A DNA stretch of 64,000 nucleotides from the NCBI RefSeq assembly GCF_002335445.1, contig NZ_BDME01000001.1:434001-498000 (forward strand). The letters are read 5' to 3'. The DNA comes from Lebetimonas natsushimae (GTDB lineage: Bacteria; Campylobacterota; Campylobacteria; Campylobacterales; Nautiliaceae). The notes beneath the pieces were generated by a model, which ran no database searches, had not been told where the DNA came from, and saw only the letters and a program-made list of their open reading frames with translations. Positions 28,891 through 31,158 of the stretch are shown here, piece after piece (the first letter of the stretch is position 1; each line of letters begins with the position of its first letter). The position numbers were made by a program, and so were the translations under genes.

Positions 28891-29136
28891 AAATATTTAA
28901 ATAAATTAAAAGCAGCTGTGATTAATGAAGATATTGAAAAACTTAAAGAATTAATTAAAGAAGAAATTTCTTTTTCTTCTATTGATGAGGCTAAAGAAAT
29001 TAATTTTTATATAAAAATGGCTGTGAATATCTTAGAAAAAGAAAAGGAAAAACTCTCATCTGAAATGCAAAAAATTAAAAAACTTCAAAAATTTAATTTT
29101 GAAAATAAAAAAGATTTGTTTAATTTTAAAATTTAA
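28888..29136 (+). CDS. Small helical protein after fliS, FliT-like by position
   Basis: 82 residues, predicted all-helical and charged (KLKAAVINEDIEKLKELIKE ... NILEKEKEKLSSEMQKIKKL). The size, helical content and place directly after fliS fit a FliT-type export chaperone, but sequence similarity is not obvious. The start codon comes from the low-complexity motif. The 3' end overlaps the convergent crp-type gene by 11 bases. Confidence 0.6.
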   Translation: MKYLNKLKAAVINEDIEKLKELIKEEISFSSIDEAKEINFYIKMAVNILEKEKEKLSSEMQKIKKLQKFNFENKKDLFNFKI

Positions 29137-29761
29137 AGTTTTTTAAACCTTCTATATCTTTTATAATAAATGTTTTGTGATCTTTTTCCAGAAGATTCTT
29201 TTTTATAAGCATATTAATAAAAGTAGAAAGAGTCTGTCTGGTGGTCCCCAAAAAGTTTGCAAATTCGTCTATTGAGCAGTTTAATTTTACTTCAATCCCT
29301 TTTGCTGTTTTTTTTCCTATTTTTTCCGCAGTGGTTGTTAGAAAATTGATAGCTCTTTGGGAACAGGTTGTAAAAGCCAGATCATGAATCAAATCTCTTT
29401 CGATTTTGATTTTATCGGTTATCTCTTTTAATATTAAATTATATAAATTAATATTGTCTATATAATTGATGCATTCTTTGATTGGTATGAAGTATAATTC
29501 ACTTTCTTCTTTTGCTTTTATAATATTTTCTTCGCTGCAAAATGCAATATTGTTTTTATTAAGATAATATAATGTTATTTCTTTATCATTTTTGTATGTC
29601 ACAATTTTTATTTTACCTTTTATAACAATTAAAATTCTGTCATTACAAGGGAAACATATTTCATTTTTTTTAAGATATCTTTTGGGAAATTTTTCAAAAT
29701 AATTAAGTTTTATATATTTTTCTATTTCCGGATTGGGTAACAATATTCTGCAGTTTTGCAT
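29126..29761 (-). CDS. Crp/Fnr-family transcriptional regulator
   Basis: 211 residues: N-terminal cyclic-nucleotide-like sensor barrel (LKKNEICFPCNDRILIVIKG ... ITLYYLNKNNIAFC), a dimer helix, and a winged helix with recognition segment FANFLGTTRQTLSTFINMLI. It has cysteines at about 4, 38, 41 and 75, and more at 132; no Fnr-type N-terminal Cys cluster is visible, so the signal may be a thiol or sulfane-sulfur reaction rather than an FeS cluster, which is inference. It is divergent from a periplasmic rhodanese gene, with a palindrome between them. Confidence 0.88.
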   Translation of the reverse strand: MQNCRILLPNPEIEKYIKLNYFEKFPKRYLKKNEICFPCNDRILIVIKGKIKIVTYKNDKEITLYYLNKNNIAFCSEENIIKAKEESELYFIPIKECINYIDNINLYNLILKEITDKIKIERDLIHDLAFTTCSQRAINFLTTTAEKIGKKTAKGIEVKLNCSIDEFANFLGTTRQTLSTFINMLIKKNLLEKDHKTFIIKDIEGLKNFKF

Positions 29762-29775
29762 AATTTTACCTTTTT

Positions 29776-29791
29776 TGTCAGGGTCCTGACA
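29776..29791. promoter_or_regulatory. Palindromic operator candidate, Crp/Fnr gene and rhodanese
   Basis: TGTCAGG-GT-CCTGACA, perfect 7-bp arms and 2-base centre. It starts 15 bases upstream of the crp-type ATG and overlaps its ribosome-site region; 64 bases before the rhodanese ATG. It is GC-rich within very AT-rich DNA. Binding by the neighbouring regulator is inference. Confidence 0.6.
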
Positions 29792-29854
29792 TTTTTTGTT
29801 TTTATTATGAATTATAATTCATTATGTACAAAAAATCAAATAAAGGAGAAAAAA

Positions 29855-30409
29855 ATGAAAATCGGAAGAATTTTAGGGTTGTCGCTAATAGCTGCTTCTT
29901 TTGTATTTGCACATACTTTTAAATTGGCAGATACTATAAAAGGTGCAGGCCCTATGGTTAAAGAATTTAATGCTGAGTGTCATTATTATGAACAGTTTGT
30001 AAATTACATTACTCCAGATGAGCTAAAAAAATGGATGGATGAAGATAAAGATTTTACTATTGTTGATGTAAGAAGTGTTGATGAAATGAAAGGCGGGGAA
30101 ATAGACTGGCCTGATTATGACGAATATCCAAGAGGTGATGTGGCAATTTATGCTGCAATGGGTGGATTGAAAAAAGATAAGGTTTATGTTTTTGTATGTG
30201 CGACTGGGCACAGGGCGGTACTTGCCGGCGGTGAACTTGTTAAATGGTTTCATTTCCCTAAAAAAAACATATATGTATTAAGAGGCGGAATAAACGGATG
30301 GCTAAACTGTGGATATCCTGTTGTTAACAAAGTTACAGAATTCGGTGGATTTAAAGGTTTGAAAAAAGTTGGAAAAGTAAAAGAACCTGTTATTTTAGAC
30401 CAATTCTAA
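29855..30409 (+). CDS. Periplasmic rhodanese-domain protein
   Basis: 184 residues from the ATG at 29855 (AAAGGAG upstream); a longer frame from 29756 is unlikely because it would include the operator. Signal peptide KIGRILGLSLIAASFVFA. The single rhodanese domain has DVRSVDEMKGGEI and the active loop CATGHR with the persulfide cysteine at 115, then VLRGGINGWLNCGYPVV. Such proteins bind or transfer sulfane sulfur during polysulfide or thiosulfate metabolism. Its pairing with a Crp/Fnr regulator suggests sulfur-responsive control. Confidence 0.87.
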   Translation: MKIGRILGLSLIAASFVFAHTFKLADTIKGAGPMVKEFNAECHYYEQFVNYITPDELKKWMDEDKDFTIVDVRSVDEMKGGEIDWPDYDEYPRGDVAIYAAMGGLKKDKVYVFVCATGHRAVLAGGELVKWFHFPKKNIYVLRGGINGWLNCGYPVVNKVTEFGGFKGLKKVGKVKEPVILDQF

Positions 30410-30410
30410 T

Positions 30411-30430
30411 AATTCCCTTTTTAGGGAATT
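30411..30430. other. Hairpin spanning the convergent rhodanese/ispE junction
   Basis: AATTCCCT-TTTT-AGGGAATT, a perfect 8-bp stem filling the 11-base gap between stops and including the ispE stop codon. Neither strand has a strong T tract after it, so it may block or stabilise transcript ends rather than be a classic terminator. Confidence 0.5.
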
Positions 30431-31158
30431 CTAAAAAAACTGCTCCCGCTTCCGCTGAAAAATCCAAAATCTTTATATCTGTTGAGCTCCGGATAAGCTG
30501 TTAGAGCTGGCATTAATAAATCATTAAGTTCAGTCGGCTTTTTGGTTTTTAATAACTCTTCTGTTGAAATTTTGTCAAAATTAGTATCGGCGGGGTTAAA
30601 AAACTGTTCCTTATAAGTTTTATAAACAAGAGGGGTTGAGCATTCAATCGGAGGGGTAAAAACTTCCAAATTCAAGGCTTTTTCATTAACAGGTTCCACT
30701 ATATCACCTCTTCCGTAAACATTTGCAACATCTGTGTCTGCTAAGAAGAAAGGAACATCGCTTCCTATTTTTTTGCCGATGTCCATTAATTCTTTGGTTG
30801 AAAGGTTTAAATTTGCCTCTTTATTAACAAGAAGTAAAAATGCCGCCGCATCACTGCTGCCTCCACCGAGTCCCGCCATTTCAGGTATGTTTTTATGAAT
30901 TCTGATCTCTTTGCCTATAAACCATTTTTTACTTTCCGGATAAGCCCTGGTAAGTTCTACATAGGCTTTAAATACGGTATTGTCTCTTAAAACACAGTTA
31001 ATATCCCCTACAATGTTAAATTTTTCGGCTTCTTTTATTTCTATTTCGTCGTACAGGTTTTTTACCCTCATAAAGCGAGATTTCAAAAGGTGATAATATC
31101 CATCATGTCCTACTATTTTTAAAAATATATTTACTTTTGCAAATGCTTTAATTTTCAT
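30421..31158 (-). CDS. ispE: 4-diphosphocytidyl-2-C-methyl-D-erythritol kinase
   Basis: ATP-dependent kinase of the MEP isoprenoid pathway (GHMP family). 245 residues, with the start [20 protein letters not shown], the phosphate loop [17 protein letters not shown] and the C-terminal [11 protein letters not shown]. Overlaps csrA by 11 bases; the operon order is uvrD-truB-csrA-ispE. Confidence 0.95.

Follow-up and report, generated by a model that had tools for sequence, protein, structure and literature searches.

Results and Discussion

A Divergent Gene Pair and Its Relatives

How is a divergent pair of genes, one for a Crp/Fnr regulator and the other for a periplasmic rhodanese, controlled in Lebetimonas natsushimae, and to what signal would the regulator respond? 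The pair lies within the 64,000-nucleotide stretch of DNA that we have analyzed (referred to below as the window), and an earlier note on this DNA placed between the two genes a shared gap of 94 bases containing a perfect palindrome. The genes and the palindrome are as described there, while the gap is 93 bases long (29762-29854), with the rhodanese starting at ATG 29855, a start that is backed by an alignment of orthologues. The gap contains another perfect palindrome, missed by the earlier note, which is included among the features that follow.

29126-29761, minus strand: gene for the CooA-like Crp/Fnr regulator (211 aa; HTH_Crp_2 above cut-off, CooA the best PDB match)
29776-29791, no strand: operator 1, TGTCAGGGTCCTGACA (TGTCAGG-GT-CCTGACA; two perfect 7-bp arms with a 2-bp spacer; half-sites TGTCA-N6-TGACA)
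29807-29822, no strand: palindrome 2, ATGAATTATAATTCAT (perfect; core TGAATTATAATTCA at 29808-29821; overlaps both -10 boxes)
29811-29839, minus strand: predicted regulator promoter, TTGATT-N17-TATAAT (10/12 consensus match; predicted start near 29804)
29813-29818, plus strand: predicted rhodanese -10 box, TATAAT, placed by its spacing to operator 1 (predicted start near 29825)
29855-30409, plus strand: gene for the Sud-like periplasmic rhodanese (184 aa; PF00581 3.9e-10, Sud 1qxn 4.4e-13)

The rhodanese begins with what is, by eye, a signal peptide, and its closest solved relative is Sud of Wolinella succinogenes, from which it differs in the active-site loop (CATGHRA as opposed to CKTAARA in Sud), in the addition of N- and C-terminal extensions and in an extra conserved Cys; a Cys in the N-terminal extension is kept in all seven orthologues. 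A role as a periplasmic sulfur carrier of the Sud type is probable. In Nautilia a Sud-like protein is named as a polysulfide carrier (PMC2628731, PMC10092268).

The regulator matches PF13545 (HTH_Crp_2) at 6.9e-11, with 42.4 bits against a cut-off of 27, and its nearest solved relatives are the CooA proteins of R. rubrum and C. hydrogenoformans (2hkx, 6.7e-21; 1ft9, 3.5e-15), apart from which the Campylobacterota proteins are grouped, on long branches, in a tree. Relatives are found in 31 of the 199 genomes of the order, giving 33 matches, of which 31 were examined for recognition helix and site and two, for which no locus was fetched, were left out. A search of genome contigs with the regulator returned a single match that is distant and partial, and a search of plasmids returned none. 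In each of the seven closest relatives, all from the window's own family, the rhodanese gene is adjacent and divergent, and these seven rhodanese-linked regulators are set apart by a single branch in all 200 bootstrap trees (100%; branch support 93/94). More distant relatives adjoin genes that are, by sequence, formate dehydrogenase-like, of the hyf-type hydrogenase kind, or other; the formate dehydrogenase-like gene is interrupted after 139 codons, a pattern such as selenocysteine would give. In genome G135 (L095) a rhodanese has the same neighbors as in the window, flagellar-type genes on one side and an ispE-like gene on the other, and the regulator and both palindromes are absent.

Operator 1 and the Recognition Helix

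Perfect 7-bp palindromes with spacers of 0-8 number 153 in the 64 kb of the window, or 0.22 per 93 bp, and one of them is nothing unusual in itself, so that the case for operator 1 rests on comparison; those with G+C-rich arms are rarer, with 8 entries listed for the 64 kb, some of them nested. The recognition helix of the regulator reads RQTLS, close to the RQTTS or RQTVS of CooA, and 14 of the 31 relatives examined are of the RQTxS class. Within 450 bp upstream of 12 of these 14 we find TGTC-N8-GACA, in ten cases as an exact TGTCA-N6-TGACA, while the same pattern is absent upstream of all 15 relatives with RQSxS (five) or other helices (ten), and control patterns are absent upstream of all 31. 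Two relatives with RQRFS show TGTAA-N6-TGACA at the same spacing. The published CooA consensus, TGTCGGCNNGCCGACA (PMC545781), has the same outer half-sites, TGTC...GACA, as operator 1. Recognition of TGTCA-N6-TGACA by the CooA-like regulator is supported by this agreement between helix and site, and operator 1 is very probably the regulator's own operator, common to both divergent genes.

The palindrome is kept exactly in four of the seven relatives with the same gene pair, differs by one mismatch, with the spacing unchanged, in two more, and is broken in one; the absence from such relatives that the earlier note would have counted against its idea is seen in that one case of seven. The closest relative, G088, keeps both genes and palindrome 2 and has lost operator 1 together with its spacing; the exact site is absent throughout that genome. 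At one locus (L014) the regulator is preceded by tandem TGTCGCAAAACTGACA and TGTCGCAAATCTGACA and by further TGTC half-sites, where single sites are found elsewhere.

In the window's own 1.64-Mb genome TGTCA-N6-TGACA occurs exactly at a single place (none for the reversed control). The link to polysulfide reductase (psr) or sqr genes that the earlier note suggested looking for through further copies was therefore not found. Allowing up to one mismatch to operator 1 gives 40 places as against 29 for the control, near background, and only three of the 40 besides the gap lie outside open reading frames (preceding one prepilin-like gene, one HrcA-like gene and one whose start resembles a signal peptide); a larger regulon of operator 1 in this genome was rejected on these grounds. 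Also rejected as a target was the near-match TGTCAGGGACCTTACA, which falls inside a hydrogenase small-subunit-like gene (L122). Upstream of ten rhodaneses that do not adjoin the regulator there is no exact site for either palindrome, and one-mismatch sites precede three of them, two of which belong to genomes with no regulator detected (G146, G113). The second rhodanese of G048 (L101) has TGTAATTTTATTGACA and then TGAATTATAATTTG upstream, close to the regulator-linked site of that genome, and is possibly a second target.

Promoter Geometry

In all 14 loci that carry the site a TA...T hexamer starts exactly 21 bp past it, and for any other gap between 10 and 34 such a hexamer is present in at most five of the 14; this constancy does not amount to 14 independent events as the loci share ancestry. 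Two loci without TGTC-N8-GACA, L004 and L150, are left out of the count, the second of which has, by eye, CGTCTTTTATATGACA (2 mismatches) followed 21 bp on by TATTAT. The spacing places the center of operator 1 at -41.5 from the predicted rhodanese start. A center at -41.5 is the class II activator position, as for CRP and Fnr, and the rhodanese gene is therefore probably activated by the regulator, to judge from this geometry. On the opposite strand the predicted regulator promoter is the best sigma-70-like promoter for that gene, in a region (29700-30500) where 5 promoter-like sites are found as compared with 3.5 in shuffled sequences. Operator 1 lies downstream of the predicted start, which suggests that the regulator represses its own gene. 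The earlier proposal that the palindrome serves to repress the regulator gene and to control the rhodanese can thus be sharpened: a shared operator is very probable, control of the rhodanese becomes activation from -41.5, and autorepression is plausible.

Two readings would deprive operator 1 of any role in binding. The background frequency of perfect palindromes in the window and the one-mismatch matches in the genome, which barely exceed background, would both be in keeping with a chance inverted repeat, a reading that we consider very improbable as the site recurs according to helix class and at a fixed spacing. Alternatively, the palindrome, with TTTTTT after it and a place among the terminator-like sequences (1 as against 0.5 in shuffles), could be the hairpin of an intrinsic terminator on the plus strand. 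The nearest upstream gene on that strand, however, ends at 29136 and is separated from the palindrome by more than 600 bp, a span that includes the regulator gene. Orthologous loci differ in the inner bases of the site but agree in its TGTCA half-sites and in the distance of 21 bp to the -10 box, making a terminator exceedingly improbable. We regard it as likely that a CooA-like regulator acts through operator 1 with a class II activation geometry for the rhodanese, an assessment that excludes the nature of the signal.

The Signal

The regulator has seven cysteines, at positions 4, 36, 39, 75, 97, 133 and 162, and inspection by eye shows no N-terminal cluster of the Fnr type, only Cys4 being near the N-terminus; this agrees with the earlier description of several cysteines and no such cluster. 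Cys4, Cys75 and Cys162 are invariant in all seven rhodanese-linked regulators, in which the pair Cys36 and Cys39 is not conserved as a whole. Six invariant positions, C75 and C162 among them, are missing from nine RQTxS sisters, and the total number of cysteines is 6-7 in the rhodanese-linked clade as opposed to 2-3 in these sisters. The three invariant cysteines, two of them missing from the sisters, lend some weight to thiol or persulfide sensing, and our best guess for the signal, made from sequence comparison, is a cysteine-based redox or sulfane-sulfur input through Cys4, Cys75 and Cys162, a heme-based input ranking only slightly lower.

With the same operator and the same activation, the regulator might instead sense a gas or redox state through heme, as CooA does, an appreciable possibility that we nevertheless place below even. 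CooA is the nearest solved family, its heme ligands being given as Pro2/Cys75/His77 or Ala2/His82 in the part of the PgRsp paper that treats them (PMC6955866), and a Cys coincides with CooA Cys75 or falls one residue from it in all seven rhodanese-linked proteins; alignments differ by one residue here, pairing Cys75 of the regulator with either Cys75 or Met76 of CooA. Moreover, a His is kept at the CooA ligand position in two sisters linked to formate dehydrogenase (G015 and G088b), and CooA-like PgRsp binds heme, with single changes of Cys76, Met78 or His85 leaving its spectra unchanged, as stated in the same part of that paper. On the other hand, the equivalent of His77, a ligand in R. rubrum CooA, is missing in all seven rhodanese-linked proteins, Pro2 is present in one of the seven, and no CO dehydrogenase scores above cut-off in any of 15 genomes. 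The predicted target here is a rhodanese and not CO dehydrogenase. Matches of 26-38 bits, which cover part of the CO dehydrogenase model in frames of 444-516 aa, are as would be expected of hybrid cluster protein, and CO metabolism was rejected.

Palindrome 2

The core of palindrome 2, TGAATTATAATTCA, carries TATAAT on each strand, and exact copies in the 21 genomes of the family number 17 (none for the reversed control), all confined to three loci. Seven are in the gap between regulator and rhodanese, in every one of the seven regulator-linked rhodanese loci; seven more, in 5 genomes, lie between the gene of a zinc-ribbon helix-turn-helix (HTH) protein and a transport gene, which is nikM-like in four genomes and a periplasmic binding-protein gene in G088; and three are upstream of a DUF3373 gene. 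The second copy in the window's own genome falls between hypF/zinc-ribbon HTH genes and nikMN-, further transport- and hypBCDE-like genes, where names beyond CbiM, PDGLE and HypF were assigned by inspection of sequence.

Palindrome 2 could be nothing other than the symmetric -10 element of a bidirectional promoter, with no separate regulator bound. Such an element would look much like this, with TATAAT boxes that overlap on the two strands and a divergent gene on either side, and cores resembling ATTATAAT are also seen in tetR/hypA gaps of the family. Yet no copy of TGAATTATAATTCA is found beyond the three loci in 21 genomes, the copy at the own nickel locus is 31 bp from one gene and more than 200 bp from the other, and each of the copies before the DUF3373 (porin) gene is accompanied by a second TGAAT-N4-ATTCA, the two starting 23 bp apart in three genomes (L085, L086, L087). 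We consider a mere -10 element unlikely, if by no means negligible.

Three candidate readers of palindrome 2 were considered and rejected. NikR (PF08753, NikR_C) is detected in none of the 21 family genomes as compared with 5 of 14 control genomes. The TetR protein of the hydrogenase cluster has a match in 20 of the 21 (one, in G168, weak), and TGAAT-N4-ATTCA is present at none of the 19 tetR loci examined. As for the zinc-ribbon HTH protein, it is not detected in G113 and G146, which have the palindrome, and in G048 and G033 it is present with no palindrome adjacent.

Two of these proteins are of note in themselves. The zinc-ribbon HTH protein (210 aa; L151:1821-2453, minus strand; near C1:768 kb in the own genome) adjoins hypF and nickel/hyp genes, has relatives in 95 of the order's 199 genomes, matches no Pfam family above cut-off, and is possibly an undescribed hydrogenase/nickel regulator. 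In the family the TetR-type gene (L159:1531-2109; near C1:757 kb in the own genome) diverges from a hypA-like gene and precedes genes for [NiFe]-hydrogenase-like subunits. Its relatives in G037 and G121 are divergent from a rhodanese, with TGAATATTCATTCA between the two genes in G037.

Relation to Known Systems and Significance

Taken together, a regulator-operator-target unit of a CooA-like kind, with the geometry of an activator, is well supported by the comparisons. Other regulators bear comparison with it. PgRsp of Porphyromonas gingivalis is described as a CooA-like, autoregulated Crp/Fnr protein of a possibly separate family (PMC6955866); it is linked to oxidative stress and not to a rhodanese, and is likened to the regulator here by description only. 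PsrR of Wolinella succinogenes controls psrABC of sulfur respiration and belongs to the AraC family as opposed to Crp/Fnr, according to the relevant section of a review of respiratory regulation in Campylobacterota (PMC6682613), in which a text term search did not return the word CooA. Searches among open-licence papers, including ones for a persulfide-sensing Crp/Fnr protein with a rhodanese and for CooA with formate hydrogenlyase, gave no report of the regulator or of the locus.

The gap may be pictured as a two-input divergent promoter. A regulator dimer at -41.5 would touch RNA polymerase and activate the rhodanese in class II fashion, and the same bound dimer, being downstream of the regulator's predicted start, would limit regulator synthesis. 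A second DNA-binding protein may sit on TGAATTATAATTCA over both -10 boxes and would tie the gene pair to genes of nickel uptake and hydrogenase maturation. With the rhodanese probably a Sud-like carrier, such a circuit would tune sulfur/polysulfide handling to respiratory conditions.

A more ambitious scenario, which we offer as speculation and think improbable as a whole, is that a formate/hydrogen-linked CooA-like heme activator became a cysteine-based sulfane-sulfur sensor, the His being lost and the clade-specific Cys75 and Cys162 joining Cys4, while its target became a polysulfide carrier and palindrome 2 came to join the supply of sulfur in the periplasm with nickel uptake and the maturation of hydrogenase in these sulfur-respiring, hydrogen-oxidizing vent bacteria.

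For the Campylobacterota the results provide an operator and a promoter geometry, both defined and open to test, for one group of CooA-like regulators. A single genome, G088, holds sister regulators that share a type of recognition helix and differ in sensor residues and neighbors (formate dehydrogenase, hydrogenase, rhodanese), so that a change of ligand in a Crp/Fnr sensor becomes directly testable, and palindrome 2, common to both loci, would link the sulfur carrier with the nickel/hydrogenase genes.
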